From: Puniceibacterium antarcticum
GTDB taxonomy: Bacteria > Pseudomonadota > Alphaproteobacteria > Rhodobacterales > Rhodobacteraceae
Direction of reading: 5' to 3'
NCBI RefSeq assembly: GCF_002760615.1
Contig: NZ_AWWI01000106.1
Coordinates: 1-50,546 of the forward strand
DNA: 50,546 nt
In this document: piece after piece, positions 22,350-42,626 of the stretch
How the letters are laid out: every line of letters starts with the position of its first letter
How positions within the stretch are numbered: the stretch's first letter is position 1
Notes under the pieces: generated by a model
What the model saw: only the letters and a program-made list of their open reading frames with translations
Databases searched by the model: none
What the model was told of the DNA's origin: nothing
Program-made: the position numbers and the translations under genes

Positions 22350-22377
22350 TGTAAGGTTTGGAGACCGGCAACGTCTA
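22350..22377 (+). promoter_or_regulatory. ECF-type promoter of the CPD ATPase-arc operon
   Basis: TGTAAGG (22350-22356), 15 nt, CGTCTA (22372-22377). One of five sites with this motif and identical spacing; it ends 51 bases before the TTG start. Confidence 0.7.
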
Positions 22378-22428
22378 TTTACCTAAACGGTCGTTCTCGA
22401 TCGCAAGGAAAATCGACAGGAGCCAACA

Positions 22429-24795
22429 TTGAAAAAATTGACCCTTGAGGTCCGCGGGCTGTTCGAGGAACTCGATCATCTCGCGGTCGAACGCCATTTG
22501 TCAGCTCTCGGCGGCGTGCACAGCGCCGAAGCGAACCCGGCATCGGCAAGCGTGACAGTCCACTACGATGAGACGGCAGTGGGCGAGGAAGAGCTGCGCA
22601 ACACGGTTGAGGCCTGCGGATTCCACTGCGCCGGGGAGCGGGTTCCGAACCATGTCTGCCACGCCGACCATCAAATGTCTGGCGCGGAGGCCCCGGCTGG
22701 CCACGACGCGATGGCGCACGAGATGGGCCACGGCGGTGGTATGGACATGGCCAGCATGGTCCGCGACATGCGCAACCGCTTCTGGGTGGCGCTGCTGTTC
22801 ACCATCCCGATCTTCACTTATTCGCCGATGGGTGGCCTGTTCACGCCACCCGCGCCGCCCTTCGGGCTGGAACTGGATCTGTGGCTGTTCTTCCTGGGTA
22901 GTGCCGCGATTATCTGGCCAAGCTGGCCGTTCTTCGTCGCCGCCTGGCGCGCCCTGCGCAACGGCATCCTGAACATGGCGGTCCTGGTCGTGCTGTCGGT
23001 TGGCACCGGTTATGTGTTCAGCGTCGGGTCTACCTTCTTCTTTCCGGGCGTGCAATTCTACGAGGCGGTGGCGGTGCTGCTGGTGTTCATCCTGTTGGGT
23101 CACTGGCTGGAGATGCGCGCGCGGGCCGGGGCGTCCGCTGCAATCCGCGCACTGCTCGATCTTGCACCGCCGATGGCGACCGTTATCCGCGATGGGCAAG
23201 ACGTTGAGGTGCCTACCTCCGAAGTACTTGAGGGCGAGATCGTGCTGATCCGGCCCGGCAACAAGATCCCGGTGGATGGCGAGGTTGTCGAAGGCGCGTC
23301 GCTGGTCGACGAATCCATGCTGACAGGCGAATCCATGCCGGTCAACAAGGCCGTCGGCGACACCGTGATCGGCGCCACCATCAACAAGAGCGGCAGTTTC
23401 CGGTACCGCGCCACCAAGGTCGGGGCCGACACCGCGCTGGCGCAGATCGTCAAGCTGGTGCAGGAGGCGCAGAACTCCAAGGCACCCGCCCAGCTTCTGG
23501 CCGACAAAGCCTCACAATGGCTGGTGCTGATCGCCGTCGTGATCGGACTTGCAACCTTCGCGGTCTGGTTCTGGTGGATCGGCTCTCCGCTTTTGTTCGC
23601 GCTGACGCTGACGATCACCGTCTTCGTCATCGCCTGCCCGGACGCGCTTGGGCTTGCTACGCCGATGGCGGTGATGGTGGGCACAGGGTTAGGGGCGCAG
23701 CACGGTATCCTGTTCAAGAATGCCGGTGCGCTGGAAGACGCGACCAAGCTTGACGTGATCGTCTTCGACAAGACCGGCACGTTGACCATGGGCGAACCGC
23801 GCGTGGTCGAGGTCGTTGCCGCCGAAGGCGGCGCGGAGGATGACGCGCTGCGGGCTGCGGCGGCCGTCGATCGCGGCTCGGACCACCCGCTGGCGCTCGC
23901 CATTGTCGAACGCGCGGCGGACCTCGACGTCCCGCAGATGGCCGAGTTTCTCAACCTCGAAGGCCGCGGCGCGCGCGCCGAAGTCGCAGGCAAGACCGTG
24001 CTGGTCGGCAATCGGCGCCTGATGGACGAGGAGGGTATCGACGTCGGCACCCTGACGGCGGAGGCCGAGCGCCTGAAGGGCGAGGGCCGCACGGTTGTGC
24101 ATGTGGCGCAGGGCGGACGGATGCTGGGCCTGATCGCCATCGCTGATGCGCCGCGTCCGAGCGCCAAGGCCACCGTGGCCAAGCTGCGCGCACGCGGCGT
24201 CGAGGTGGCGATGCTGACCGGCGACAACGAAGGTACCGCAAGGCGGATCGCGGGCGAGCTGGGCATCGACATTGTGCTGGCAGATGTTCTTCCGGGCCAA
24301 AAGGCCGAGAAGGTCAAAGAGCTTCAGGCCCAGGGTAAGAAGGTCGGCATGGTCGGTGACGGTGTCAACGACGCACCCGCGTTGACCCAGGCCGATGTCG
24401 GATTTGCCATCGGTGCGGGCACCGACGTGGCGATGGAAAGCGCCGATGTCGTGCTGATGAAAAGCGATCCCTACGATGTCGTGGGGGCCATCGAGTTGTC
24501 GCGCGCCACCTTGCGCAAGATGCACCAGAACCTGTTCTGGGCCGTGGCTTACAACGTGGTCGCCTTTCCGATGGCGGCAGGGGTGTTTTATCCGTTGATC
24601 ATCAGCCCCGCCGTGGCAGCACTTGCCATGTCGGGCAGCTCCGCGCTGGTGGCGGTCAACGCGCTGCTGCTGAAACGAACGCGGCTGGAAGGTATTGGTG
24701 CGGGCAAGAGTGGGTCCGCCAGCGGCGGCGGTCAGGGCGATGCGCAGGCAGGCCAGGTGCCGCTTCACGCCGGACACTCGCAGAAATCACATTGA
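22429..24795 (+). CDS. P1B-type metal ATPase with CPD instead of CPC
   Basis: The 788-residue protein has an N-terminal HMA-like fold without the CxxC pair, a His/Met-rich linker ([17 protein letters not shown]) and a P-type ATPase core. The phosphorylated Asp is residue 447 (DKTGT) and [10 protein letters not shown] follows. The membrane metal motif at residues 403-405 is CPD, not the CPC, CPH or SPC of the standard copper, mixed and cobalt types. The substrate is therefore uncertain; I favour a copper-related or other divalent ion. The start is a TTG with ACAGGAG at good spacing. It is the first gene of the arginine deiminase operon. Confidence 0.9.
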
Positions 24796-24811
24796 ATAAG
24801 GGGGACTTGAG

Positions 24812-26260
24812 ATGTCTGACACATCATCGACCAAGACACCGGACGGGAAGGGCATGGCGGCGCGGTTTCCCACCGCGTATTCCATCCTGTTCGGCCTGAT
24901 CATCGTTGTCGCGGCGCTGACCTGGATTATCCCTGCGGGCCAATATGACCGCGCCATGAACGAAGAGGTCGGGCGCGAGATCGCCGTGCCGGGTACGTAT
25001 CAAACGGTCGAGCCCAATCCACAGGGGGTCATCGACGTCATGCTGGCACCGGTGGCGGGGTTTTATGATCCCGACAGCTATGCCGCAAATGCCATCGACG
25101 TGGCGCTGTTCGTACTGCTTTTGGGCGGCTTTCTGGGCGTGGTGAATGCCACGAATGCCATCGACACCGGCATCCAGACGGCGATGGTGCGGCTGAAGGG
25201 GCGCGAGATCTGGATGATCCCGATCCTGATGTCGCTCTTTGCCCTGGGCGGCACGACCTATGGCATGGCCGAGGAAACGCTGGCCTTTTACGCGCTTCTG
25301 ATCCCGGTGGTGATCGCGGCGGGCTACGATTCCGTGACCGGCGTGGCGATCATCCTGATCGGTGCCGGGATCGGCACGCTGGGATCGACAATCAACCCCT
25401 TCGCCACGGTGATCGCGTCTAACGCGGCAGGCATCCCGTTCACGGATGGTATTGCGCTGCGGCTGGTCCTTCTGTTGGGCGGCCTCGCGATCTGCGTGGC
25501 CTACGTCATGCGCTATGCCTCGAAGGTTAAGGCCGACCCGGCCCGGTCCGTCGTCGCTGCGCAACGCGACAGCGACCGGCAGTTTTTTCTGAACGAGACG
25601 GATGCAACGTTCGAGGAGCCGAAGCTGAGCGGAACTCAGAAGCTGGTCCTGATCCTGTTTTTTACGACCTTTGCGGTAATGATTTGGGGTGTCTCGAGCC
25701 AGGGATGGTGGATGGCTCGGATGGGCGCGCTGTTCTTCGGCATGGCCATCGTCGTCGGGCTGGTCGCCCGCATGGGGGAGAAGAAGCTAACGTCGTCCTT
25801 TGTCGACGGAGCGAAGGATCTTCTGGGAGTTGCGCTGGTGATCGGTCTGGCGCGCGGCATCGTGGTGATCATGGAGCAGGGCCTGATTGCCGACACGATC
25901 CTGAATAGTGCCGCCGATACCCTCGGCGGCCTGCCGGAAGTCGCGTTCATCAACCTGATGCTTTGGATCGAGATCGGGATGAGCTTTCTCGTGCCGTCGT
26001 CGTCCGGCCTGGCCGTCCTGTCGATGCCGATCCTTGCCCCGTTGGGGGATTTCGCGGGGGTCGGCCGTGACCTCGTGGTGACGGCCTATCAATCGGCGAG
26101 CGGGCTCGTGAATCTGATCACGCCCACCTCTGCGGTTGTGATCGGCGGTCTGGCCATCGGGCGCGTGTCGTTCGACCGCTGGGTCGTCTTCGTCTGGCCC
26201 CTGCTGCTGATCCTCGTCGTCTTCATCTCGGCCGGGATCAGCCTGGCCGCCATTCTCTGA
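24812..26260 (+). CDS. YfcC-family amino-acid carrier (putative arginine/ornithine exchanger)
   Basis: The 482-residue protein has about 12 membrane helices and YfcC/DcuC-superfamily signatures ([73 protein letters not shown]). YfcC-like carriers often sit in arginine deiminase operons, where they replace ArcD in exchanging arginine for ornithine. That substrate is inferred here from the arcA-arcB-arcC genes directly downstream. The start ATG follows GGGGGA. It begins 17 bases after the ATPase stop. Confidence 0.85.
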
Positions 26261-26283
26261 TTAGAAAGAAGGAGGCATTCCAG

Positions 26284-27513
26284 ATGTCTGAACCAAAATT
26301 GGGCGTTCATTCCGAAGCCGGTACATTGCGGCAGGTGATCGTATCGCCACCCGGCCTGGCGCATCGCCGTCTGACACCGGACAACCGCGAAGACCTGCTG
26401 TTCGACGATGTGTTCTGGGTCAAACAGGCGATCAAGGATCACGCCGTCTTTGCCGATGTCATGCGCGGCGAAGGGGTCGAGGTGTTGGATGCGATGGCGC
26501 TGCTGGGCGAGACGCTGGACATTTCCGACGCGCGCGCCTGGGTTCTCGACCACCGCATCACCCGCAATGACGTCGGCGTGGGGATGCGGGACGACTTGCG
26601 TGCCTGGATGGAGGGTCTGCCCGGCACGGAACTGGCCCGTTTGCTGGTCGGCGGCATCCGGGTGGACGATCTGCCTTTCACGCCCTCCGGCATGTTCGGC
26701 AGCTACCTTGGCCCCCACGGTTTCGTGCTGCCGCCGCTGCCAAATTTCATCTTTACCCGCGACAATTCAGCCTGGGTTTATGGCGGCGTGAGCCTGAACC
26801 CGATGCATTTCGCGGCACGGCGGCCCGAAACGCTGCTGATGGCAGCAGTCTACCGGTTTTATCCGACATTCGCGGATCGAGTGCGGGTCTGGTTCGGCGA
26901 TCCGACGCGGGAATTCGGGACGGCCACGCTGGAAGGCGGCGACATCATGCCAATCGGGCACGGTGTCGTCATGGTCGGCATGGGCGAACGATCGACCCCG
27001 CAGGCGGTGGGCCAACTGGCCGAGGCGCTGTTCGAGGGTGGCGACGTGACGCGGGTGATCGCCTGCCAGATGCCCAGTTCGCGCGCGGCGATGCATCTGG
27101 ACACCGTTTTCACCCATTGCGGGGGCGATGTGGTGACCACTTTCAAGGAGGTGGCGGATGCGATCACCTGCTATGACCTGCGCCCCGGTCAGGGCAAGGC
27201 CGCGCTCGATATCCGCCGGGATGCGCGCCACATATTCGAGATCACCGCTGAAATTCTGGGCCACAAGAAACTGCATCTAGTGCCCACCGGCGGGGCCGAC
27301 GCCGCGGAGCAATCGCGCGAACAGTGGAATGATGGCAACAACGTGCTGGCGCTGCGCCCCGGCGTCGTCATCGGCTATGACCGCAACGACGACACCAACG
27401 CCGCACTGAAGGAGGCCGGGATCGAGGTGCTGGCCATCCCCGGTGCCGAACTCGGCCGGGGCAGGGGCGGCAGCCACTGCATGAGTTGCCCGACGATCCG
27501 CGACGCAATCTGA
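26284..27513 (+). CDS. arcA: Arginine deiminase
   Basis: The 409-residue enzyme hydrolyses arginine to citrulline and ammonia, the first step of the arginine deiminase pathway. Its motifs include [30 protein letters not shown] and the C-terminal [11 protein letters not shown], with the nucleophile Cys at residue 399. A strong AAGGAGG precedes the ATG. The pathway yields ATP without oxygen through arcB and arcC, which follow in order. Ammonia release also counters acid. The operon is likely activated by low oxygen through the FNR-like box. Confidence 0.96.
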
Positions 27514-27536
27514 ACCACCGACGATAAGGAAATCCC

Positions 27537-28538
27537 ATGTCCTACAATCTGAGAAACCGCCATTTCCTGGCCCTGCGCGACTTCACGCCGCAGGAAATCA
27601 GCTTCTTGCTGAAACTCTCCGCCGACCTGAAGGCGGCGAAATACGCCGGCACTGAAGTTCCGCGCCTGACCGGCAAGGAAATCGCCCTGATCTTCGAGAA
27701 GGACAGCACCCGCACCCGCGTCGGCTTTGAGGTGGCGGCCCACGATCAGGGCGCGCATGTGACCTATCTTGGCCCCTCGGGGTCGCATCTGGGCAAGAAG
27801 GAAACCGTCAAGGACACCGCGCGCGTGCTAGGCCGGGTCTATGACGCGATCGAATATCGCGGATTTGGTCACCCTATCGTCGAGACGCTGGCGCAATACG
27901 CTGGCGTGCCCGTCTATAACGGGCTGACGGACGAATTCCACCCGACGCAGATCCTTGCCGATTTCCTGACCATGCAGGAACATTCCGACAAGCCGCTGCG
28001 CGAGATCGCCTATTGCTTCATGGGCGATGCGGGCAACAACATGGGTGACAGCCTGCTGATCGGCGGGGCGAAGATGGGCATGGATGTGCGCCTGTGCGCG
28101 CCCGAAAGCCTGTGGCCGGGCCAGGCGATCCGCGACGAGGCCGATGACGTCGCCGTGCAGACCGGCGCGCGGATCACGATCACCGAGGATGTGGACGCCG
28201 CGGTGAAAGACGTCGATTTCGTCTATACCGATGTCTGGGTGTCGATGGGTGAGCCCAAGGAAAAATGGGCGGAACGGATCGAGCTGCTGACGCCCTATCA
28301 GGTGAATTCCGATGTGATGGCCAAAACCGGCAATCCGAGGGCCAAGTTCATGCATTGCCTGCCCGCCTTCCACAATGCCGAGACCGAAGTCGGCGCCGAT
28401 ATCGAAGAGGAATTCGGCATCACGGCGATGGAAGTCACCGAAGAGGTGTTCGAAAGCCCGGCCTCCATCGTGTTCGATCAGGCCGAGAACCGGCTGCACA
28501 CGATTAAGGCGGTGCTCGTCGCCACGCTGGGCAACTAG
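27537..28538 (+). CDS. arcB: Ornithine carbamoyltransferase, catabolic
   Basis: The 333-residue enzyme carries the carbamoyl-phosphate site FEKDSTRTR, the HPTQ motif ([11 protein letters not shown]) and the ornithine-binding HCLPAFHN segment. It converts citrulline and phosphate to ornithine and carbamoyl phosphate here, the reverse of the anabolic reaction; the direction is inferred from its place between arcA and arcC. The anabolic argF is expected elsewhere. AAGGAA lies before the ATG. Confidence 0.95.
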
Positions 28539-28540
28539 CG

Positions 28541-29452
28541 GTGCTGGTTGTCGCCGCATTGGGGGGCAATGCATTGTTGCGCCGTGGCGAGCCGCTGACC
28601 GCCAAGGCGCAGCGCGAGAACGTCGCCACCGCGGCTACCGCGCTGGCGCAGATCATCAAGGCCGGACACCGGCTGGTCGTCACCCACGGCAACGGGCCGC
28701 AAATCGGCCTGCTTGCATTGCAGGGTGCGGCCTACAAACCCGATGCAGTGTTCCCGCTGGATGTGCTGGGGGCGGAAACCGATGGCATGATCGGTTACAT
28801 GATCGAGCAGGCGCTTGAAAACGCCCTGGGCCATGACCGCCCGGTCGCGACCCTGCTGACCCAGATCGAGGTCGATCCCAAAGACCCGGCCTTCGCCAAA
28901 CCCACCAAGTTCATCGGCCCGGTCTATGACAAGGCGGAAGCCGAACGGCTCGCGCAGGCGCGGGGGTGGAGCATTGCTGCGGATGGCGCGCATTGGCGCC
29001 GCGTGGTGCCGTCGCCGATGCCGAGTGGCATTCCCGACCTGAAGGTGCTGGAACTGCTGCTCGAGCAGGACGTGACGCTGATCTGCGCAGGCGGCGGTGG
29101 CATTCCGGTCGTCCGGCGTGCCGACGGTTCGCTGATCGGGGTCGAGGCGGTGATCGACAAGGATCACGCGACGGCGCTTCTGGCACACAAGCTGAACGCC
29201 GACGCGCTGTTGCTGCTGACTGACGTCGAGGCCGTGTTCCGCGACTTCGGCACCGAAACGCAATCGGCTATTAGGCAGGTGTCGCCGGAGGACGCAGTGC
29301 GTCTGGACTTGCCCGACGGCTCGATGGCGCCGAAGGTGGCCGCCGCCGCGGCTTTCGTATCCGATCGTGCGCGTTTCGCCTCCGTGGGTCGCCTGGAGGA
29401 TGCGCTTGCCCTGCTAGATGGCAAGGCGGGCACGATGATCGTAAACAACTAA
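28541..29452 (+). CDS. arcC: Carbamate kinase
   Basis: The 303-residue enzyme makes ATP from carbamoyl phosphate and ADP, completing the pathway. It shows the ArcC pattern ALGGNALLRRGE, THGNGPQIGLLALQ, GGGGIPVV and DKDHATALLA. It starts with GTG at 28541, two bases after the arcB stop, so it is translationally coupled. The length is normal. Confidence 0.95.
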   Translation: MLVVAALGGNALLRRGEPLTAKAQRENVATAATALAQIIKAGHRLVVTHGNGPQIGLLALQGAAYKPDAVFPLDVLGAETDGMIGYMIEQALENALGHDRPVATLLTQIEVDPKDPAFAKPTKFIGPVYDKAEAERLAQARGWSIAADGAHWRRVVPSPMPSGIPDLKVLELLLEQDVTLICAGGGGIPVVRRADGSLIGVEAVIDKDHATALLAHKLNADALLLLTDVEAVFRDFGTETQSAIRQVSPEDAVRLDLPDGSMAPKVAAAAAFVSDRARFASVGRLEDALALLDGKAGTMIVNN

Positions 29453-29470
29453 ACCCAAGGAGCATATTCG

Positions 29471-30241
29471 ATGAAACGTCTGGCAGAAAAAGTCACCCTG
29501 ATCACTGGAGGAGCGGCAGGCATCGGTCTGGAAACCGCCCGGCTTTTCTTGAGTGAGGGGGCCAAGGTTGCGCTTGTGGACCTCCACGTTGACGACCTGT
29601 CGGATGCTGCGGGGGATCTGGGCAATCCGGACGACCTGCTGACAATCGCCGCCGACGTCTCATCGGTCGAAGATTGCAAAAGATACGTCGCGCAGACCGT
29701 CGAGAAGTTCGGGCGCATCGACGTGTTCTTCAACAACGCCGGAGTCGAAGGCATGGTCGCGCCGCTGGTCGATCAGAAGATCGAGGATTTTGACCGCGTG
29801 ATGGCGGTTAATGTGCGCGGCGCTTTCCTTGGGTTGCAGCATGTCTTGCCCGTGATGACTGGGCAGCAATCGGGCAGCGTGATCAACATGTCGTCGATCG
29901 CGGGCCTCAAGGGCAGCCCGAACGTCGCGCCCTATATCACGTCGAAACATGCCGTTGTCGGTTTGACGCGCGCCGCCGCGATAGAGGTCGCAGGCCACAA
30001 CGTGCGTGTCAACTCGGTGCATCCCTCGCCGGTCAACACGCGGATGATGCGGTCGCTGGAGGAAGGGTTCAATCCCGGCCACGGCGACGAAGTGAAGCAA
30101 CAGCTTGCCGGCACGATTCCGCTGGGTCGCTATGGTGAAAGCATAGAAATCGCCAATCTGGTCCTGTTCCTCGCCTCCGACGAGTCCGCCTTCATCACGG
30201 GAGCGCAGTATCCCATCGACGGGGGCATGTCGGCGGGCTGA
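29471..30241 (+). CDS. SDR-family oxidoreductase
   Basis: The 256-residue protein is a classical short-chain dehydrogenase. It has the nucleotide site GGAAGIGLE, the NNAG motif and the catalytic Ser-Tyr-Lys set (MSSIAG, YITSKHAVVG). The substrate cannot be read from sequence. AAGGAGCA precedes the ATG and it follows arcC by 18 bases, so it is the last gene of the arc operon. It could regenerate NAD+ or reduce a by-product; this is a guess from context. Confidence 0.9.
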   Translation: MKRLAEKVTLITGGAAGIGLETARLFLSEGAKVALVDLHVDDLSDAAGDLGNPDDLLTIAADVSSVEDCKRYVAQTVEKFGRIDVFFNNAGVEGMVAPLVDQKIEDFDRVMAVNVRGAFLGLQHVLPVMTGQQSGSVINMSSIAGLKGSPNVAPYITSKHAVVGLTRAAAIEVAGHNVRVNSVHPSPVNTRMMRSLEEGFNPGHGDEVKQQLAGTIPLGRYGESIEIANLVLFLASDESAFITGAQYPIDGGMSAG

Positions 30242-30286
30242 TCGGGTCTCTGCCCTATGGGTTTGGAACCTGTTGCTAGGGGGCTG

Positions 30287-32780: not shown

Positions 32781-32808
32781 CAGACGAAAGATGACAAGGT
32801 TCATTACA
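32781..32808 (-). promoter_or_regulatory. ECF-type promoter of the cfa-GAPDH operon
   Basis: On the minus strand TGTAATG (32808-32802), 15 nt, CGTCTG (32786-32781), about 63 bases before the cfa start. Motif and spacing match four other sites in the window. Confidence 0.7.
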
Positions 32809-33629: not shown

Positions 33630-33647
33630 GATACACCTCTGAAAAGT

Positions 33648-33675
33648 AAGACGCCGAACCATCGAGAACGTTACA
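33648..33675 (-). promoter_or_regulatory. ECF-type promoter of sigma copy 3 (autoregulation)
   Basis: On the minus strand TGTAACG (33675-33669), 15 nt, CGTCTT (33653-33648), 18 bases before the start. It matches the site before the DUF3141 operon in both hexamers. A regulator with its own regulon motif suggests positive feedback. Confidence 0.75.
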
Positions 33676-33884
33676 CTTTTTCGGGTGCTTCGGGTGACCT
33701 GATTGTTGGTGGTTTTGCTGTTGGGTATGCACAGGCGCGGTCTTTTGGAACCCGGGCCAACGGGCGTATGCCCAGGAATGCGTAAGGTTTCGGCTGCCGC
33801 AGCGTCTTCTTACTTCGCCCCTGAGTTGGCACATCGGAAAATTTCTGCAATTCCTGCCACTTCTGACTTGGAAAGGAAATCTCG

Positions 33885-34775
33885 ATGTCGCCGACTGTCA
33901 TAACCAAAATCGTTTTGGCCATGTTCCTGTGGGCGGCGTGCTTTCCGTTGATCACGGCAGGGCTGCAATACTCGCCGCATCTGACTTTTGCGACAATGCG
34001 CGCAGTTCTGGCCGGAGCAACTTTGGTGGGTCTGGCCATGATTTTGCGCAGACCATTCCCGCGCGGTTGGCGCACGTGGTTGACCTTGGGGATCGTCGGG
34101 ATTGGTGCGACAAGTTTGGGATTTCTGGGCATGTTTCATGCAGCAGAATTCGTGTCTCCGGGCCTCGCCACGGTCATCGCAAACGCGCAGCCGCTGCTGG
34201 CCGCAATACTGGGTGTTGTATGGCTTGGCGAAAGGCTGCCGAAGGTCGGTTGGGTCGGCCTTTCGATCGGATTCATGGGAATCCTCGTGATCGCGCTGCC
34301 GCAATTGCTTGATGGAGGGCAAGAGGGGTCGGCCATCGGTTTCGCCTATATCGTTTTGGCCGCGGTTGGGGTGACCATCAGCAACGTGGCCATCAAGTCC
34401 ATCGCCGGCAAAGTGGACGGGCTTTTTGCAATGGGGTTACAGTTGCTCATCGGCAGCGCGCCGCTCGCGTTCGCAGCCCTCGCGCTGGAAGATCAAAACG
34501 CCATTCAATGGAACGCGGTCTTCACGGCATCGCTTTTGGGGCTGGCCCTGTTCGGCTCAGCGCTGGTGTATTGGCTCTGGTTTTCCGTGCTGGAGGCAGT
34601 TGAGCTGAACCGGGCGATTGTGTTCAGCTTTCTTGTTCCAATCTTCGGTCTTTCAATTGGTGCCTTGTTTTTCGGGGAACGCCTGTCCGGGATTCAATTT
34701 TCCGGTATTGCGCTGGTCATTTTGGGGATCGTGTTCGTCAATCTTAAGGGAGCACGGCGGTCTCAAGGTCGATAA
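33885..34775 (+). CDS. EamA-family (DMT) transporter
   Basis: The 296-residue protein has ten predicted membrane helices in two EamA repeats (residues about 5-135 and 150-290), with the family's typical ATVIANAQPLLAAILG and FLVPIFGLSIGALFFGE segments. Such proteins export amino acids or other metabolites; the substrate is unknown. GGAAAGGAAA precedes the ATG. It is divergent from sigma copy 3 and upstream of sigma copy 2. No copy of the ECF motif was seen before it. Confidence 0.88.
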   Translation: MSPTVITKIVLAMFLWAACFPLITAGLQYSPHLTFATMRAVLAGATLVGLAMILRRPFPRGWRTWLTLGIVGIGATSLGFLGMFHAAEFVSPGLATVIANAQPLLAAILGVVWLGERLPKVGWVGLSIGFMGILVIALPQLLDGGQEGSAIGFAYIVLAAVGVTISNVAIKSIAGKVDGLFAMGLQLLIGSAPLAFAALALEDQNAIQWNAVFTASLLGLALFGSALVYWLWFSVLEAVELNRAIVFSFLVPIFGLSIGALFFGERLSGIQFSGIALVILGIVFVNLKGARRSQGR

Positions 34776-34995
34776 TACAGAACAACCTGTTAACCTGTTT
34801 TCAAACGGTCGTTTTGGCTATTGTCTTCGTCGAAAGCCTGTTTGCTTCGATACGAATGTGTGTTGCTTATTCAGAGTGACGCGCGGAGGGGCAAATTGTT
34901 CTTAGAATGACTGCGCGCATTGTACGTTAGAGAGACAATGCTCGAATCAGCGCTGATCGCACCTTCGCAAACCTCTTGGAAAGGGCAGAGACATC

Positions 34996-35622
34996 ATGGC
35001 ATCGCAAGACAGTGGCAAGCCCGATGTGCCCGACGCTTCGCCGGAACGCGCCCTGTTGGACGGGCGCGGAGCGTTTATGGGATTTCTGGTCAAACGGCTT
35101 GGCAACCGCGCAGATGCAGAGGATGTCCTGCAAGACTTCTGCATCCGCGTGCTGTCACGCAAGGATCAGCTCCGAGAGGTCGAACGAATGGATGCGTGGC
35201 TCTACACAATCCTGCGGTCCACTTTGAACGATCACTACCGCAAAGGGACCCGGCGTAGCCGGCTGGCGGCGGCGGCGGCGCGCGAACCAGAGGGATGGAT
35301 TGCCGATGCGCCCTCACAGATGGCGCGGCTGTGCACCTGCCATGGCGGGTTGATTTCCGAACTGCGCCCGGCGGATGCCGAACTGATCCGGCGCATCGAT
35401 TTCGGCGAAGAAGATCGCGAAAGCGTGGCAGCCGATCTGCGGCTTAACCGCAACGCACTTGGTGTCCGGCTACACCGGGCACGCACTGCTTTGCGCGAGG
35501 CGCTTACAACGCATTGCGGCAAGTGCTGCCAAGAGGACCGGGACGATTGTTACTGTCCGCCCGAGGGCTGCGAGAACGACAAACACGAGACTGATTGCGA
35601 AGAAGAGGGACAACTATCCTGA
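34996..35622 (+). CDS. ECF sigma factor with Cys-rich tail (copy 2)
   Basis: The 208-residue protein is close to copy 1: region 2 (RLGNRADAEDVLQDFCIRVL), linker CxC (LCTC) and region 4 (DLRLNRNALGVRLHRARTAL). The tail is longer, with HCGKCCQEDRDDCYC, then further Cys, Asp and Glu residues. It lies just upstream of the TGTAACG promoter of the DUF3141 operon. No anti-sigma gene is next to it. I see no copy of the motif before its own gene, so it may be constitutive or driven by another factor. The ATG follows AAAGGGCAGAGA. Confidence 0.88.
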   Translation: MASQDSGKPDVPDASPERALLDGRGAFMGFLVKRLGNRADAEDVLQDFCIRVLSRKDQLREVERMDAWLYTILRSTLNDHYRKGTRRSRLAAAAAREPEGWIADAPSQMARLCTCHGGLISELRPADAELIRRIDFGEEDRESVAADLRLNRNALGVRLHRARTALREALTTHCGKCCQEDRDDCYCPPEGCENDKHETDCEEEGQLS

Positions 35623-35640
35623 TCGCAGCGAAGTCGGGTC

Positions 35641-35668
35641 TGTAACGATTTCCATGATCCAGCGTCTT
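35641..35668 (+). promoter_or_regulatory. ECF-type promoter of the DUF3141-FabI operon
   Basis: TGTAACG (35641-35647), 15 nt, CGTCTT (35663-35668), 45 bases before the start at 35714. Both elements are identical to those before sigma copy 3. Confidence 0.75.
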
Positions 35669-35713
35669 CTTCTGTGAGTGTGCCCGAAGGCACAACCGCA
35701 GGAGAAATTGAAC

Positions 35714-36046
35714 ATGCCACGTATCACGTCGGATTGGAACTCGGGAGTACCCCGTCAACCATCATCCGATGACGATCTTCGCGTCTTTTTATCCCGGATG
35801 ACCTGCGCATGTGCCGAGACTTCCGCGTACGCAGATGCCCCGATGGCACGCGCGTTGTTCAACCGTGTGGAAGTGATGAAACAACCCCCGACGCTTGCGG
35901 CACGCGCGCTGGGTATTGCGTCTCGCGATGCGACCTATCTCCTTTCCGGTCTGCGCGAGGATGTGGCGAAGGATTTCGTGCGTGTGATGCTCGCTGGACG
36001 ACCCTCCATAGACACTACCAATCAAGAGGAAGCTGATGATGAATAA
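35714..36046 (+). CDS. Unknown small protein, first gene of the DUF3141 operon
   Basis: The 110-residue protein is helical and acidic at its end. Near the middle it has CAC in MTCACAETSAYADAP, then a C-terminal helix pair. No membrane segment, signal or named domain is recognised. The ATG at 35714 follows GGAGA; a longer start would cover the ECF promoter. Its end overlaps the DUF3141 gene by 11 bases. It might assist the DUF3141 protein, as small partners of PHA-synthase-like proteins do; that is a guess. Confidence 0.65.
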   Translation: MPRITSDWNSGVPRQPSSDDDLRVFLSRMTCACAETSAYADAPMARALFNRVEVMKQPPTLAARALGIASRDATYLLSGLREDVAKDFVRVMLAGRPSIDTTNQEEADDE

Positions 36047-37829
36047 GAGCCTGCGCCTTGCGACAGTGACCCCGGAACAATTTCTTGCACCCGTTTCCGG
36101 TAACGCAACGACCGCTAGTAACGTGCCTTACGTCCAAGACGCCTTTGAACGCTGGGTGCTGCTTCTCGACACGCTGCGTGAACGCGCCGACAATATGATC
36201 GCGCATGAGCGGCAGGGCATGCCGCCGCTTCTGGATTTCGATTACGAACTGCTGCTGGACGCACGCACCTTTGAGCGGTCGGCCAACTACGCGCTGCTCA
36301 GGATCACGCGGGTCGGCGACGATTGCTGGGACGATTGCGTGGACGAGGCCAAGCCGCCCGTGATCGTCATTGATCCGCGCGCCGGGCACGGGCCCGGTAT
36401 CGGCGGCTTCAAGCGCGACAGCGAGGTCGGCATGGCGATGCACGAGGGCCATCCGGTCTATTTCGTGATCTTCTACCCCGAGCCCATGCCAGGTCAGACG
36501 CTGTCGGATGTGCATTATGCCTTGCGCGACTTCGTCTCCGAGGTCGCTCGCCGTCACCCGGACACAGGCCCCGTGCTCTACGGCAATTGCCAGGCCGGTT
36601 GGGCGGCCACGCTGCTGGCGGCGGATTGCGACGGTCTGACCGGTCCGATTGTACTGAACGGCTCGCCGCTCAGCTACTGGTCGGGCGAGGCGGCAAGCAG
36701 CCCGATGCGGATGATGGGCGCACTGTCGGGCGGGGCATGGGCCGCCCATATGATCTCCGATCTGGGGGACGGGCGGTTCGACGGTGCCTGGCTGGCACAG
36801 AATTTTGAGACCTTGCAACCCGAAAAGGCGATCTGGGACAAATACGCGAACCTCTTTGCCCATGCCGACACCGAACGCGAGCGGTTCCTTGAGTTCGAAC
36901 GCTGGTGGAATGGCTACTACACGCTCAGCCGCGAGGAAATCCTCGGCATCACGCAGAACCTGTTCATCGGCAACCGGCTGGAACAGGGCGAGATGCAGCT
37001 GGATGCGCATTGCACCGTCGATCTTAAGCGCATCAGCAATCCGCTGATCATCTTCGCCTCGGACGGTGACAACATCACGCCGCCCGAACAGGCAATGGGG
37101 TGGATTGGCAAGCTTTATCCCGATACCGATGCGCTCAAGGCAGCCGGGCAGCGCATCGTCTATATGACGCATCCGCGTGTCGGGCATCTGGGCATCTTCG
37201 TCTCCGGCTCCGTCGCGCGGCTCCAGCATCGTGCGATTCTGGAAAGCCTGGACGATGTCGAGGCCCTTTCCCCGGGTCTCTACGAGATGGTGATCGACAA
37301 CCCGTCGGGTGACCCGGACTGCGAGACCGGCGATTTTGAGGTGCGATTCGAACCGCGCGAGGTCGATGATCTGGGCATTGCATCGGACGATGCGGCCTTG
37401 AAACAAGTGGCGCAGATATCGCGGATCAACGAGGCGGTCTATTCGACTTTCGTCAGTCCTTGGATCCGCGCCGCGACGACCCCGGCCAGCGCTGAGGCGC
37501 TCCGTGCGCTGCACCCCATGCGCTGGACCAGAACGATGTTCTCCGAACAGGTGAACCCGTGGATGGCCCTGATCAAGTCCACCGCCGAAACGCTGCGCGA
37601 GACGCGCTCACCATTGCCGGACGACCACCCCGCGATCGTGGCCGAGCGTGCGCTGTCGGCGCGCACCGGCGAGGGTATAGGCGCATGGCGCAAGGGACGC
37701 GATGCCTGGATCACCCATGTCTTTGGCGCGATGTTCGGCAATTTCCCGTTCGCCGCAGCAACCACACAGGCGGAAAAACCGTCGGCCTCATCAAAAAAAG
37801 GAATGAACAATTATGGAATGGCTTTTTGA
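36036..37829 (+). CDS. DUF3141 alpha/beta-hydrolase-like protein
   Basis: The 597-residue protein matches DUF3141, related to poly-3-hydroxyalkanoate synthases. It has an alpha/beta-hydrolase core (VIDPRAGHGPGIGGFK, YGNCQAGWAATLLA in place of the lipase box, FASDGDNITPPEQ and HPRVGHLGIFVSG). The nucleophile position appears to be Cys in GNCQAG, as in PHA synthases. Whether it makes a polymer or acts as a hydrolase is unknown. It overlaps the gene upstream and the small gene downstream. Confidence 0.85.
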   Translation: MMNKSLRLATVTPEQFLAPVSGNATTASNVPYVQDAFERWVLLLDTLRERADNMIAHERQGMPPLLDFDYELLLDARTFERSANYALLRITRVGDDCWDDCVDEAKPPVIVIDPRAGHGPGIGGFKRDSEVGMAMHEGHPVYFVIFYPEPMPGQTLSDVHYALRDFVSEVARRHPDTGPVLYGNCQAGWAATLLAADCDGLTGPIVLNGSPLSYWSGEAASSPMRMMGALSGGAWAAHMISDLGDGRFDGAWLAQNFETLQPEKAIWDKYANLFAHADTERERFLEFERWWNGYYTLSREEILGITQNLFIGNRLEQGEMQLDAHCTVDLKRISNPLIIFASDGDNITPPEQAMGWIGKLYPDTDALKAAGQRIVYMTHPRVGHLGIFVSGSVARLQHRAILESLDDVEALSPGLYEMVIDNPSGDPDCETGDFEVRFEPREVDDLGIASDDAALKQVAQISRINEAVYSTFVSPWIRAATTPASAEALRALHPMRWTRTMFSEQVNPWMALIKSTAETLRETRSPLPDDHPAIVAERALSARTGEGIGAWRKGRDAWITHVFGAMFGNFPFAAATTQAEKPSASSKKGMNNYGMAF

Positions 37830-37992
37830 AAACTGGGTTTTGGTTCTCGTCTTCGGCGGAATGGCCGCAATGCACCTTTTCGGGCACGGACATGGCGGAC
37901 ACAAACATGGCAAGTCGGCCAAGCGTCATGGTGCGCACGACAAGAAGTCCGAAGCTTCCGCCGATACCGAGGCAGTGTCGGAGGATGCCTGA
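37813..37992 (+). CDS. Tiny His-rich membrane protein (DUF2933-like)
   Basis: A 59-residue frame starts at 37813 within the end of the DUF3141 gene (AAGGA 9 bases upstream) and ends overlapping the FabI start. It has one membrane helix (WVLVLVFGGMAAMHLFG) followed by HGHGGHKHGK and a charged tail. It resembles the C-terminal half of the DUF2933 protein at 49499-49768. Overlap on both sides argues for a real gene with translational coupling. Function is unknown; metal binding by the His cluster is possible. Confidence 0.75.
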   Translation: MEWLFENWVLVLVFGGMAAMHLFGHGHGGHKHGKSAKRHGAHDKKSEASADTEAVSEDA

Positions 37993-38827
37993 ATTCGACG
38001 CATGCTGCGATCCTGCGGAACTGCTTGATCTGTCCGGCCGGAAGGGTCTGGTTGTCGGCATCGCCAATGATCGCAGTCTGGCGTGGCCTGCTGCCCTGCA
38101 TTTCCGTCAAGCGGGTGCCGAGCTCGCCATCACCTATGTCGATGAGCGCACCAAACCTCATGTGGTGCCATTAGCTGCACGTCTCGAAGCGCCGATCCTG
38201 CTGCCCTGTGACGTGAATGCGCCGCACGAACTCGACGCTGTCTTCGACGCCATCACGGACCGCTGGGGAAAATTGGATTTCATCCTTCATGCCGTGGGCA
38301 GCGTGCCGCCCGGCGACCTTCATGGCCGCCTGACTGACTGTTCGGCTGCAGGGTTTTCCCAAGCGATGCATGTGTCCGTCCATTCGCTGATCCGCATGGC
38401 GCATCTTGCCGAGCCCCTGATGAAAAGAGGCGGCAGCCTGATCACTCTGAGCTATCTGGGTGGCGAACGTGTGGTGGAGAATTACAACGTGATGGGGCCG
38501 GTCAAGGCGGCGCTTGAGGCCACCGTGCGCTATCTGGCTCACGAACTCGGGCCATCGAACATCCGCGTCAACGCCATTTCGGCGGGACCCGTGATGACCC
38601 GCGCGGCGTCCGGGTTGACCGGCTTTGCGGGTCTTCTGGACGCGACCGCGCGAGTTGCCCCTTTGCGGCGCAACGTCACGGCCGACGAGGTGGGCCGCGC
38701 CGCCCTGCTGTTCGCCAGCGACTATACCGACGGCATCACGGGCGAGGTGCTGCATGTCGATGCGGGTGTTCACGTCGAAAGCCCTGTCGCCGCAGCCAAA
38801 ATGAACGTCAAATCGGAGGAATCATGA
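37985..38827 (+). CDS. FabI-like enoyl-ACP reductase
   Basis: The 280-residue protein is a divergent SDR of the FabI type. It has the nucleotide site [38 protein letters not shown] with the Tyr and Lys of FabI, and [13 protein letters not shown]. It reduces trans-2-enoyl-ACP in fatty-acid synthesis. A housekeeping fabI is expected elsewhere, so this is probably a stress copy. The ATG at 37985 overlaps the tiny His-rich gene; an upstream extension runs through DUF3141 in another frame and is not real. Confidence 0.87.
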
Positions 38828-39426
38828 TGCGCCAGACAATTGACGAAACCAATCAGTTGCCCGCAACAGAGCGCCGCGATTTCCTTTATTATGCAACGGC
38901 CTCAACCGGCGCGATTGCCGCAGGCGCGGCGGTCTGGCCGTTGATCAATTCGATGAACCCCTCTGCGGATGTGACCGCGTCCGGCACGGTCAGGGTCGAT
39001 CTTGCCGGTGTCGAACCGGGTCAACGTATTACCGTGAAATGGCAGGGGCGCCCGGTCTTCGTCTGGCGCCGGTCACCAGCCGCAATTGAGGCTGCACGAG
39101 CCGTCGATCTCGACCAGCTTCCCGATCCTGTTGACGAAGCGGTCGAGAATCCGAACGCAAGTAGTGAAGAGCCAGCGCTGGATGAAAACCGCGCGGCGGG
39201 CGAGGATGGCGAATGGCTGATCGTCATCGGTGTCTGCACCCATCTGGGGTGCATTCCGCTGGGGCAGGATGGGTCGGCGGTGGGCGAATTCGGCGGTTGG
39301 TTCTGCCCGTGCCACGGATCGCATTACGATACCTCGGGCCGGATCCGGAAGGGGCCGGCCCCACGCAACCTCGACATCCCACCTTACGATCTGGGCGACG
39401 ACCTGCAACTCGTTATCGGCACCTGA
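38824..39426 (+). CDS. Rieske iron-sulfur protein (cytochrome bc1 type), without its partners
   Basis: The 200-residue protein looks like the Rieske subunit of ubiquinol-cytochrome c reductase. It has a Tat-like leader ([23 protein letters not shown]) and the cluster motifs CTHLGC and CPCHGSHYD. No cytochrome b or c1 gene is present. It may swap into the host bc1 complex or serve another quinol chain. ATG overlaps the FabI stop. Its N-terminal leader and motifs are alphaproteobacterial in style. Confidence 0.92.
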
Positions 39427-39465
39427 CGTGCTGAACCAGCCAAAACTCAAGAAGGAGACTATTAC

Positions 39466-40161
39466 ATGCTCGCTAGGGATATCATGACAACATCGGTGAT
39501 CTCGGTCCCGCTCGAGGGACAAATCGAGGACGCGGTTCGCCTCATGCTCGACCACAATATCAGCGCGCTGCCCGTCGTTGACGAAGAGGGCGATCTGAAG
39601 GGTCTTGTCAGCGAAGGCGACCTCATGCGGCGTGTCCGCGAAACAGACGGACCACGTCGGTCGTGGTGGCTCGAGGTGCTTGGCGGATCGGGCGATGCTG
39701 CCAGGGATTTCGTGAAGCTCAAAAGCCACCGCGTCGAAGACGTGATGACAAGGGATGTGGTTTCGGTAGACGAAGACACCAATGTCGCAGAGATCGCGCG
39801 TCTTCTGGAAAAGCACCGGATCAAGCGCGTGCCGGTGGTGAGATCCGACAAAGTGGTCGGCATCGTCAGCCGGGCGAACCTGCTCCACGCCTTGTCGGCG
39901 CTTCAGGATGGGGCGCTGCCGGAGCCGTCGGAGGACGACCGCGTGCTGCGTGCGAAGATTGAAGAGGCTCTGAAAGAAGTGCCTGGTGCAGCGGTCAACC
40001 TCATCAACTACACGGTGGACAAGGGGAATGTCGCCGTCTGGGGTGTCGCCGACAGCGATTTCGAGGAGAATGCGATCCGGGTTGCCGTCGAAAACGTGCC
40101 CGGTGTCAGGACGGTTGAGGTCCATATGGGACGACTGCCGGCCTGGGCTTACGGGATCTGA
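39466..40161 (+). CDS. CBS-pair and BON-domain protein
   Basis: The 231-residue protein has two CBS motifs (DIMTTSVISVPLEGQIEDAVRLM, VEDVMTRDVVSVDED) and a C-terminal BON domain (IEEALKEVPGAAVNLINYTV). CBS pairs sense adenine nucleotides; BON domains bind membranes or proteins. It is cytoplasmic with no signal. AAGGAG precedes the ATG. It likely modulates an unknown partner according to energy charge, which fits the low-energy theme of the operon. Confidence 0.9.
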   Translation: MLARDIMTTSVISVPLEGQIEDAVRLMLDHNISALPVVDEEGDLKGLVSEGDLMRRVRETDGPRRSWWLEVLGGSGDAARDFVKLKSHRVEDVMTRDVVSVDEDTNVAEIARLLEKHRIKRVPVVRSDKVVGIVSRANLLHALSALQDGALPEPSEDDRVLRAKIEEALKEVPGAAVNLINYTVDKGNVAVWGVADSDFEENAIRVAVENVPGVRTVEVHMGRLPAWAYGI

Positions 40162-40221
40162 CTCACATTGCGGAGATAAACCCGGCCTGTCAGGACGTCG
40201 ATCGCATCGAGGAGGGTTCGT

Positions 40222-41213
40222 ATGATGGCGCTAACGCCAGGTTCCGCCGACCCTGAAGACAAAACGATTGAAATCGTCGGGGCCGGTCCCGCAGGTCTGG
40301 TCTGTGCAATCGTTTTGGCCAAGGCCAATCGTCGGGTCGTGGTGCGAGAGTGGCACGAAGATGTCGGCCATCGGTTCCACGACGACTTTCAAGGCCTTGA
40401 AAACTGGACCGCCGCCGGGAACGTTCTGGGCGAGTTGGCGGAGGTAGGGGTCGCCGCGGATTTCGATCATCTTGGCGTGACGGAAGGGGTCGTCTTTGAT
40501 AGCCGCGCCACAGCGCACCGGGTGCATGGATCGCAACCCCTGTTCTACCTGTTGCGGTGCGGCAATGCAGCGGGAACGCTCGACAGGGCCTTGCTGGATC
40601 AGGCGCGTACGGCGGGGGTAGAGGTGCGATTCAATGATCGCGTGAAGAGAACCGCCGGCAATATGATCCTGGCAGGCGGGCCGCGGCGGGCCGATATCAT
40701 CGCCGTGGGCTATGTCTTTGACACGACCATGGCCGATGGCACGTGGCTGGCGTTCGGGGCGGAGATTGCCCCGAAGGGCTACGCCTATCTGCTCGTGCGT
40801 CAGGGGCGCGGCACGGTGGCCAGTTGCATGTTCTCGGGCTTTCGCGATCAGGCAAAATATCTTGCCGCGACGGTGGCATATTTCGAACGTCACGCCGGGC
40901 TGCAAATGCAAAGACCGAGAGGCTTCGGGGGTTTCGGGAATGTCCGATTGCCGCGCACCGCGATGCAGGGCAGAAACCCGGTGATCGGCGAACACGCGGG
41001 CCTCGCGGGATCGACTACCTGGTCGGAAAGCTGGGATCAAACGACACGGACGACTCCTTGGGCCAGGCCTACCGGCTGTCATTGCCTAAGCGCCTGCTGC
41101 TGCCGCTCGCCCGATTTCGCTATCGCAACCCTTTGCAGGATCGCAGTTGCAGCCACAACAACTGCGATTGTGTCTGGTGCCAGCACGGCGCGCATGAAGT
41201 AGCGGACACCTGA
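40222..41213 (+). pseudogene. FAD-dependent oxidoreductase, frameshifted
   Basis: The frame from the ATG at 40222 encodes a Rossmann flavoprotein (IEIVGAGPAGLVCAIVLAKANRRV) of the geranylgeranyl-reductase-like group. The 40222 frame runs as normal protein to NPVIGEHAG (about 41000) and then becomes unrelated Cys/Thr-rich sequence. The next frame gives a convincing end: IDYLVGKLGSNDT, RLSLPKRLLLPLARFRYRNP and a Cys-rich tail (CSHNNCDCVWCQHG), stopping at 41213. An internal deletion with a frameshift near 41005 explains both. The deletion also removed the expected FAD-binding DALWGFGLR-type part. Confidence 0.75.
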
Positions 41214-41308
41214 CGGATGTGCTTCCTTGCGAATTCGCGTTCCAAGCATAGCGCCGGCGTCGTGACGCCGATGTTGCGACTGGACCGGTGGGGCGGTAAG
41301 CCGCGATT

Positions 41309-42472
41309 ATGAGCAACTCGCACGCACCTCGTGAAAATTCCCTGACGATACCGCAGGCCCGGCAAGCGATCTGTGTGCCAAATCTGGGCGAAGGGCGGGG
41401 CGCTTTCCAGCTGTTCTTCGAGGGAGATGCTCTTTTCGATGCGATGATCGCGGCGATCGAGGGCGCGACTGAAGCGATCTGGATGGAATCCTACATCTTT
41501 GTCGCCGACGAAGTCGGGGCGCGTTTTGTCGCCTTGCTCGCAGCTAAAGCGCGAACCGGGCTTGACGTGCGGTTGCATCTCGACGCTTTCGGTGCCGGCC
41601 AGCGGAACTTCGATAAGTTTCGGCGGGAACTGGAACGCAGCGGCGTGCGGTTTCGCTGGTTTCGTCCCTTTGATCTCCGACACCCGCTGCGATATTTCCA
41701 ACGCAACCACCGCAAGCTTCTCATTGTGGATGGCCGGGAAGCGTTCCTGGGCGGTTTCAACATCCGCCGGTTGAACTCGCGTCGGCTTCACGGCGAGACT
41801 CGCCAGCGCGATACACATGTGCGTGTCCCGGCGCCGTTGGCAAACCTTGCAGCAAGTCACTTCGACCGGCTCTGGCAGGACGCCCGCCCGCTTCCGGCAA
41901 ACGCCATTCCCGAAGAGGCCGACGCAATCGAAGGACTGCTGGTACCGAGCTATTCGCGCAAGTGTCAAAAGAGGCTTGCCTGTCTGCACGCGGGACTGAT
42001 CGGGATGGCACAGACCTGCGTTTATCTGACGTCGCCCTATTTCGGTCCGGGCACCGTGGTCGACCGGGCGCTTCAGGATGCCGCGCGTCGCGGCGTGGAC
42101 GTCCGTCTGCTGGTGCCTCGCACGAGCGATCCTATGGTCGCTGGCTGGGCGACGCGGGCGGCATATGCGCAGCTTCTCTCGGCGGGCGTGAGCGTCTACG
42201 AGTATCTGCCCCGTCCATTGCATGCCAAGACGTCGGTCGTCGATACAGGCTGGTCGATCATCGGGTCAGCTACCCTCGACTACCGAAGCCTGTTCGTCAA
42301 TCAGAAGCTGGTTCTGGTCGCACATGACCGCGTCCTGGCAGGGCAGTTGCAGGCGCAATATCTGCAAGATCTTTCGGATGCCCGCGAAGTCACTCTTCGG
42401 GCTTGGCATTCCCGCAGCTGGCGCGCGCGAGGTTTCGAGGTGATCGGATGGGCCGCGCGGCGGCTGCTGTAA
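41309..42472 (+). CDS. Phospholipase D-family (cardiolipin synthase-like) protein
   Basis: The 387-residue protein has two HKD-type motifs: NHRKLLIVDGREAFLGGFN and LHAKTSVVDTGWSIIGSATLDYRS. It lacks N-terminal membrane helices, as in ClsB/ClsC-like enzymes. It likely makes or alters cardiolipin, or hydrolyses phosphodiesters. The gap from the flavoprotein is 95 bases with a weak GGCGTC/GACGCC dyad. With cfa and FabI it points to membrane remodelling under stress. Confidence 0.88.
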   Translation: MSNSHAPRENSLTIPQARQAICVPNLGEGRGAFQLFFEGDALFDAMIAAIEGATEAIWMESYIFVADEVGARFVALLAAKARTGLDVRLHLDAFGAGQRNFDKFRRELERSGVRFRWFRPFDLRHPLRYFQRNHRKLLIVDGREAFLGGFNIRRLNSRRLHGETRQRDTHVRVPAPLANLAASHFDRLWQDARPLPANAIPEEADAIEGLLVPSYSRKCQKRLACLHAGLIGMAQTCVYLTSPYFGPGTVVDRALQDAARRGVDVRLLVPRTSDPMVAGWATRAAYAQLLSAGVSVYEYLPRPLHAKTSVVDTGWSIIGSATLDYRSLFVNQKLVLVAHDRVLAGQLQAQYLQDLSDAREVTLRAWHSRSWRARGFEVIGWAARRLL

Positions 42473-42598
42473 CCTATAGCACCGGTCAGCCGACAGCCTG
42501 CCGGGATGCAGTAACTCTGTCTGCAATATCGACGCCTTCCTACGGCAGAGCGATACACTTGCTCCTGTACTAACGAAGACCGACAGGTTGCTAATTTC

Positions 42599-42626
42599 TG
42601 TAATGCTTCCGGTCGGGGCGCGTCTA
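42599..42626 (+). promoter_or_regulatory. ECF-type promoter of the Cys-rich peptide operon
   Basis: TGTAATG (42599-42605), 15 nt, CGTCTA (42621-42626), 30 bases before the ATG at 42657. It matches four other sites in the right half of the window. Confidence 0.75.

Follow-up and report, generated by a model that had tools for sequence, protein, structure and literature searches.

A putative shared promoter of CorE-like ECF sigma factors in a predicted metal regulon of Puniceibacterium antarcticum

The DNA analyzed here (hereafter the window) is a stretch of 50,546 bases from Puniceibacterium antarcticum (contig NZ_AWWI01000106.1, positions 1 to 50,546), in which a putative metal gene cluster lies together with three genes for extracytoplasmic function (ECF) sigma factors. 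An initial annotation had proposed that five transcription units of this window share an ECF-type promoter with an identical 15-nt spacing, located 18 to about 65 bases before the first start codon. Scanning both strands for the pattern TGTAA(C/G/T)G-N15-CGTCT revealed exactly five matches, and the mean count in 100 dinucleotide shuffles of the window was 0.00. The sites precede unit 1 (TGTAAGG, 22350-22376, plus strand), unit 2 (TGTAATG, 32782-32808, minus strand), unit 3 (TGTAACG, 33649-33675, minus strand), unit 4 (TGTAACG, 35641-35667, plus strand) and unit 5 (TGTAATG, 42599-42625, plus strand). A position weight matrix (PWM), trained on 80 dereplicated sites from which the window's own were excluded, ranked these five sites first, with scores of 35.0, 24.5, 29.5, 33.7 and 36.4, respectively. 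The measured distances from CGTCT to the start codon, 19-63 nt, agree with the proposed range. They amount to 52 bases for the P1B ATPase of unit 1 (TTG, 22429), 63 bases for cfa in unit 2, 19 bases for sigma copy 3 in unit 3 (ATG, 33629), 46 bases for a small protein in unit 4 (ATG, 35714, with a nearer in-frame GTG at 35678) and 31 bases for a Cys-rich peptide in unit 5 (ATG, 42657). The stop codon of sigma copy 2 is separated from the unit 4 site by 18 bases.

As anticipated by the annotation, the five sites cover most genes between 22.4 and 50.4 kb. Twenty-six genes are called in this region, counting the Cys-rich peptide in place of an out-of-frame open reading frame (ORF) at 42721, and 24 of them lie downstream of one of the sites on the same strand. 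The two genes outside the five units are sigma copy 2, for which no motif site was found upstream, and an EamA/DMT transporter gene (33885-34775, plus strand). The latter is preceded by a weaker sixth site (CGTAAGG-N15-CGTCT, 33781-33807, plus strand) with a PWM score of 18.1, compared to a null maximum of 15.0 in 40 first-order Markov simulations. Identical copies of this site occur in near-identical relatives, and Sulfitobacter dubius has only AGTAAGG..CGTCT with a score of 11.7; we retain it as a weak candidate. Operon membership was inferred from strand and spacing. Between 22.0 and 41.9 kb neither sigma-70-like promoters (3 found, 4.6 expected from shuffles) nor terminators (14, compared to 17.5 in shuffles) were in excess, and hence the operon ends likewise remain predictions.

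The three sigma factor genes are located at 20774-21337 (copy 1, plus strand), 34996-35622 (copy 2, plus strand) and 32961-33629 (copy 3, minus strand), as identified by Pfam, alignment and tree. That all three encode ECF sigma factors, as annotated, is confirmed by the NCBIfam ECF superfamily model TIGR02937, which scores 45.8, 63.3 and 43.6 bits with a cut-off of 42.9. Sigma70_r2 was found by Pfam in all three and Sigma70_r4_2 was reported in copy 3 only, while the alignment spans the whole length. An identity as SigZ was rejected, since the scores for TIGR02959 and PRK09637 (68.5-83.4 bits) stay under the cut-offs of 168.65 and 212. The proteins end in a Cys-rich domain (CRD), reading CGACCLEDPDDCYC in copy 1, CGKCCQEDRDDCYC in copy 2 and CLTCPVHGFLDCDC in copy 3, and carry a linker CxC before sigma-4 (CTC in copies 1 and 2, CNC in copy 3). 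The tail spacing C-x2-C-x7-C-x-C together with the CxC is found in all three and in the sigma factor of a second contig of this genome, C142. The two linker cysteines (C113 and C115) are invariant in 11 of 11 aligned sigma factors; taking all loci, CxC is present in 90 of 94 sigma rows, and tail and CxC together in 87 of 94. The Myxococcus protein CorE is described as a metal-activated sigma factor without a linked anti-sigma factor, with a C-terminal Cys-rich domain, a linker CxC and tail cysteines 181, 184, 192 and 194 in the invariant spacing C-x2-C-x7-C-x-C (PMC3107203; PMC8999054). Judged by domain layout, tail and linker CxC, the three sigma factors of the window are CorE-like (ECF44/ECF238). 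No anti-sigma factor was detected among 17 non-sigma window proteins scanned with Pfam in their own frame, which make up part of the neighbors; a small protein beside copy 2, consisting of sigma-4 only, could be one.

In the tree, copies 1 and 2 fall into clade A (70 rows, support 96/87) and copy 3 into a group of 14 rows (support 100/99) inside clade B. The two types are about 33% identical to each other, and the sigma-4 residues V157, R158, H160, R161 and R163 are identical in 11 of 11 aligned sigma factors. Genomes with a single clade are informative here. Leisingera and Tritonibacter each possess a single clade A sigma factor, and all exact sites of these genomes lie close to it (4 of 4 within about 11 kb and 2 of 2 within about 3.5 kb, respectively). 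Devosia has two clade B sigma factors, of which one belongs to the copy 3 group, and 6 of its 6 exact sites lie within 20 kb. The motif thus occurs in genomes with only clade A and in one genome with only clade B, which fits one promoter and several sigma factors better than one sigma factor. This, together with the shared sigma-4 residues, suggests that all sigma copies probably read one promoter. The initial annotation had proposed one sigma regulon; the single promoter and regulon are supported by the comparison, and the single sigma factor is better replaced by several. In Devosia pacifica the cluster version is rearranged (locus L206, 3739-18405) and only clade B sigma factors were found in the genome, so that this cluster may be used as a single-clade test system.

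We compared the motif with related loci, using the pattern as fixed beforehand from the window. The sample consisted of 80 named loci (1.48 Mb), the best 80 of 291 confirmed, fetched with an alignment of 11 sigma proteins (A1). A spacer scan revealed 119 distinct contexts at N15, compared to 0-3 contexts for each of the 25 other spacers between 5 and 30 (six altogether); the reversed and the complemented pattern each gave 1. Shuffles, spacer scan and reversed controls together rule out a chance origin of the repeats. Together with those of additional loci and of the window, the sites numbered 136, with 118 distinct spacer sequences, and dereplication at 70% identity over 67 nt left 85. Among these, positions outside the search pattern are also biased: the base before CGTCT is G or A in 79 of 85 and the base after it A or T in 77 of 85. 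A purine is found at the ninth base after CGTCT in 71 and at the tenth in 68 of the 85 sites, which fits a transcription start there. A PWM score of at least 20 was reached by 75 of the 80 loci and by none of 80 reversed sequences; since the training sites came from the same loci, this number is descriptive only, and the spacer scan is the independent test.

The genes behind the sites recur as well. Taking a gene start within 260 nt of the site, 110 of the 136 sites (not dereplicated) have a first gene that belongs to the gene families of the window or encodes a small Cys-rich peptide. These are small Cys-rich ORFs (26, plus 5 labeled by BLAST to the window peptide; defined as <90 aa, at least 5 Cys, CC, and a start <60 nt from the site), the sigma-4-only protein (22), DUF5676 (17), P1B ATPase (10), cfa (10), the sigma copy 3 type (10), a flavoprotein (4), DUF2933 (3) and others (3). 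Gene orders differ among genome G072, contig C142, Leisingera, Devosia and the window, and the association is therefore not a single frozen arrangement. The site before sigma copy 3 is also kept in genome G049 with a different spacer sequence, and orthologous P1B ATPase genes in G049, G093 and G153 are preceded by a site whose spacer differs from that of unit 1.

Across the P. antarcticum genome (5.55 Mb) the exact pattern matches 10 times and the reversed pattern 4 times. Five matches are those of the window and three lie on C142, where the gene set is present a second time along with a separate sigma factor (DUF2933-ICMT, sigma, DUF5676-DUF3141, FabI, P1B ATPase); there, the three sites precede three of its units. 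The remaining two overlap coding ORFs, one at the start of a 215-aa ORF (C112) and one within a 583-aa ORF on the opposite strand (C121), and look like chance matches. In a first set of 198 genomes of the family, searched with the A1 profile (E<=1e-25), the sigma factor was found in 8 genomes that together hold 33 exact sites (G000 10, G072 7, G049 6, G153 4, G093 3, G156 3, G121 0, G086 0), and the 190 genomes without it hold 30 sites, with a maximum of two per genome. Three or more sites thus occur in 6 of 8 sigma-positive genomes and in 0 of 190 others (Fisher 3.6e-10). A second, partly overlapping set of 292 genomes (E<=1e-35) contained 11 sigma-positive genomes with 43 sites (G000 10, G049 6, G213 5, G363 5, G223 4, G396 4, G404 3, G372 2, G386 2, G387 2, G248 0), and 60 sites, again at most two per genome, in the 281 others; here the numbers are 7 of 11 and 0 of 281 (Fisher 9.9e-12).

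The fixed spacing, the recurrence before the same families in other gene orders and the clusters of sites that track the sigma factor all point to one promoter and one regulon. We consider it very likely that TGTAAyG-N15-(G/A)CGTCTw is the promoter of CorE-like ECF sigma factors with a Cys-rich tail and that the five units form one regulon, as far as comparative sequence data can tell; the shared ECF-type promoter of the initial annotation is supported to this degree. Start sites, inducing metal and acting sigma factor are predicted.

Several observations weigh against this interpretation. The 80 loci hold near-identical recent copies, so that 119 contexts inflate independence, and the 85 dereplicated sites are a safer number, yet not fully independent. 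Three loci (L116, L138 and L142) have no site scoring even 12, and 26 of the 136 sites have no labeled gene behind them. The Fisher values treat related genomes as independent, the two sets share G000, G049 and others, and the cut of three or more sites was chosen after the first set had been seen. Among sigma-positive genomes, G121 lacks an exact site and has three one-mismatch sites near its sigma gene, G248 has a single two-mismatch site (score 14.7), and G372, G386 and G387 carry only two sites each. G086 has no site at all; its sigma match is weak and lacks both tail and CxC. No site precedes sigma copies 1 and 2, which is atypical for autoregulated ECF sigma factors. For copy 1, the motif is absent from 300 nt upstream and 600 nt downstream, and the idea of one site per sigma copy was consequently dropped. 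Further, the fork that unites all of clade B is weakly supported (85/49), and the CorE promoter was compared by its text description only (a -35 containing AAC, a G 16-18 nt on).

The motif might belong to another ECF sigma factor, either of the ECF16/SigF type or another housekeeping ECF factor, with the CRD sigma factors being mere neighbors. Its -35 half indeed resembles the elements given for ECF16/EcfF, GTAAC(g,a)-N14-15-(c,t)CG(t,a), and for Caulobacter SigF, GTAACC-N16-CGAA, and Bacillus subtilis SigX is described with TGTAAC at -35 and CGWC at -10. SigF and EcfF (ECF16; Caulobacter, Bradyrhizobium) are likewise alphaproteobacterial and respond to metal or peroxide (PMC3511200; PMC3420878). 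They differ in the -10 element, CGAA or (c,t)CG(t,a), and in their membrane or partner anti-sigma factors NrsF and OsrA, and the sections of these papers covered here do not mention a Cys-rich tail (PMC3511200; PMC3420878). Among the window proteins scanned, no partner of the NrsF/OsrA type was found. ECF16 membership was rejected: the 80 loci contain no GTAACC-N16-CGAA and a single TGTAABG-N15-CGAA, compared to 119 contexts with CGTCT. Sites frequently lie within tens of bases of CRD sigma genes, and three or more of them occur in none of the 190 and 281 sigma-less genomes, although the listed ones among these have 6-42 loose sigma-like candidates (candidates only). We regard a foreign ECF sigma factor as improbable.

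Arguments for operators of an ordinary metal regulator of the MerR, CsoR or two-component type are the metal genes in the units, the presence of a response regulator and of a kinase-like, ATP-binding protein upstream of the cluster on the related plasmid pSMR3-1, and a CueR on plasmid pRLO149_83. The elements look like a promoter, however, with two non-palindromic boxes at one fixed spacing, a shift to A/T behind the -10 and purines at +9/+10. In the window they always lie on the coding strand at a short distance from the start codon, and between 22.0 and 41.9 kb there is no surplus of sigma-70-like promoters. Operators of this kind are thus a highly improbable explanation. Even less can be said for mere inheritance, in which young cluster DNA is copied by plasmids. 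The near identity of sigma genes across genera and of the window to Roseovarius plasmids (see below) speaks for such copying, but 85 sites survive the dereplication, boxes are exact while spacers vary (118 of 136 distinct, likewise between G049 and the window), and gene orders are not the same between loci. The divergence of the spacers largely refutes this explanation, which we find hardly credible. A promoter that is read by the CRD sigma factors themselves accounts best for the data.

The small protein that leads unit 4 (35714-36046, plus strand; 110 aa) lies directly behind sigma copy 2 and has its own motif site. It contains the CxC and lacks sigma-2 and the CRD; in the following it is called half-sigma. 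Scanned as the 122-aa version from the GTG at 35678, it had no Pfam or NCBIfam match. In a profile comparison with hhalign, an alignment of the protein and 21 relatives matched the sigma factors over the stretch that spans the CxC and sigma-4 (probability 97.0, E 9.5e-11). The AlphaFold model has a mean pLDDT of 73.3 and a pTM of 0.52; residues 41-90 form blocks at 86-95 with a helix order like that of sigma-4. The top Foldseek match of this model was the ECF sigma factor 6dv9 (E 0.12, probability 0.99), followed by several more ECF sigma-4 domains at about 0.9, with unrelated entries among them. None reached E<=0.001, so that homology rests on the profile comparison and on direct matches of four relatives to the sigma hidden Markov model (HMM; E 1e-16 to 3e-22). 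Relatives in Hoeflea, Roseovarius lutimaris and Pelagivirga match the sigma HMM directly and have kept part of the Cys-rich tail. Each cysteine of the CxC is retained in 21 of 22 half-sigma rows and R163 in 22 of 22, while the positions of H160 and R161 are without H or R in all 22. H160 and R161 are expected to contact the -35 element, given where they sit in the recognition helix of sigma-4. A half-sigma gene is found within 700 nt downstream of 50 of 99 CRD sigma genes, 45 of these with a preceding site; near-copies are counted and the half-sigma alignment includes members of the same loci, which makes this count not independent. From these features half-sigma looks like a metal-responsive modulator and not like a -35 reader, and it may represent a new type of sigma regulator. 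In SigO-RsoA of Bacillus and gp33-gp55 of phage T4, the tasks of a sigma factor are divided among separate proteins, of which one is sigma-4-like. Unlike in these systems, a complete sigma factor is also present here, and half-sigma is devoid of two conserved recognition-helix residues.

The further content of the units was assigned from ORFs, Pfam/NCBIfam and, except for the peptide in unit 5, orthologues on pSMR3-1, and predicted gene functions follow the family names. Unit 1 (22429-30241, plus strand) encodes a P1B ATPase with a CPD motif, a YfcC/DcuC-type carrier, arcA, arcB, arcC and an SDR protein. By eye, CPD replaces the usual CPC of the P1B ATPase (22429-24795), and its N-terminal HMA domain is without CxxC. 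Unit 2 (30287-32718, minus strand) consists of cfa (31378-32718) and a type II GAPDH gene (30287-31381). The latter contains an in-frame tandem duplication (31181-31281) with a 51-nt period and units at 31181 and 31232, which reads VGVADVTSDWRARMARA twice and could reflect either an error in the assembly or a recent change. Behind half-sigma, unit 4 continues (36036-42472, plus strand) with DUF3141, FabI, a Rieske protein, a CBS-BON protein, an NAD(P)/FAD-binding protein and a PLD/cardiolipin-synthase-like protein. The NAD(P)/FAD-binding ORF (40222-41202) encodes 326 aa, compared to 383-442 aa in most relatives, and its C-terminus reads as out of frame; the gene is probably broken in this genome. 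Unit 5 starts with the Cys-rich 53-aa peptide (CCGG...CCCG; 42657-42818, plus strand), which by eye resembles a metallothionein and had no Pfam match up to E 1. It is followed (42939-50421, plus strand) by a DUF5676 membrane protein, a beta-CASP RNase-like protein of the metallo-beta-lactamase type, a thymidine/AMP phosphorylase, PRPP synthase, CopA, DUF2933 and an ICMT-like protein.

The kind of sigma factor is already known from CorE. Among metal-sensing sigma factors of this kind, the sections of two reviews covered here mention no studied members besides CorE and CorE2 of Myxococcus xanthus (ECF44, now mostly ECF238), with which the cluster shares the Cys-rich tail spacing, the linker CxC and P1B ATPases as targets, here predicted ones. 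It differs from them in having two or three sigma factors per cluster that share one motif with a strict N15 between TGTAAyG and CGTCT. A regulon of at least five units with arginine deiminase, cfa, FabI, RNase-like and nucleoside phosphorylase genes, and the sigma-4-only paralogue, set it apart as well. To the extent of our search, four things are new: the promoter, what the regulon contains, its link to two sigma clades and the sigma-4-only paralogue behind one sigma gene. The initial annotation's statement that no regulon of this make-up has been described holds within the literature searched, in which promoter, multi-unit regulon and half-sigma were not found; the 2021 re-classification of ECF factors lies outside that search and may predict a group motif. 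A 2011 list of 21 CRD sigma factors includes three of Roseovarius sp. 217, two of TM1035 and one of R. litoralis (PMC3107203). The Roseovarius sp. 217 locus (L070) is near-identical to the window, and the three listed proteins are probably orthologues of the three described here.

A toxic metal, most likely copper and possibly zinc or cadmium, or its redox state, would be read directly by the Cys-rich tail and the linker CxC. The activated sigma factor would bind RNA polymerase and open all copies of the promoter. Since three sigma copies, of two tail types, would share one promoter, different signals would feed a single output. Self-amplification would be possible for copy 3 only, which has a site in front of itself. 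The predicted output comprises metal export and chelation (two P1B ATPases, the Cys-rich peptide, DUF2933/DUF5676 membrane proteins), ATP formation by the arginine deiminase route, lipid remodeling (cfa, FabI, cardiolipin-synthase-like) and nucleotide recycling. The arginine deiminase route yields ATP without respiration, which suggests a rescue when the metal harms respiration. Half-sigma would also be made; it is probably unable to contact the -35 element in the usual way and may tune the sigma factor or RNA polymerase. The cluster can accordingly be described as a putative mobile metal regulon of the CorE type with several sensors, one promoter and, probably, a half-sigma modulator. More tentatively, and with more doubt than confidence, several CorE-type sigma factors with different metal-binding tails might act as parallel sensors on one promoter class. 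A metal-binding half-sigma under the same promoter would serve such a regulon as a built-in brake or co-factor, and the whole would be a plasmid-mobile unit that couples metal toxicity to respiration-free ATP and membrane repair across genera. The motif gives a sharp, testable promoter definition and a set of putative targets in dozens of relatives, most of them marine Rhodobacterales, and leads to the prediction that arginine fermentation and lipid change are induced along with export under metal stress.

Over 93% of its length, a 24.5-kb query from the window matches pSMR3-1, a conjugative plasmid of Roseovarius mucosus, with 98.8% identity. For sigma copy 2 the identity is 99-100% to genes in Thalassovita, Yoonia and Seohaeicola and 93% to one in a Hoeflea metagenome-assembled genome; Roseovarius, too, has sigma genes at the 99-100% level. 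Such sequence identities indicate recent transfer of a mobile metal cluster. The P. antarcticum window probably lies on a plasmid. On pSMR3-1 and on pRLO149_83 of Roseobacter litoralis the cluster is found amid multicopper oxidase, cytochrome, TolC and other copper genes. R. litoralis is reported to be more zinc-tolerant than R. denitrificans and the latter more copper-tolerant, with other genes of pRLO149_83 proposed as the cause (PMC3141670). The cluster version of pRLO149_83 has two motif sites, and its surroundings additionally include RND efflux genes.

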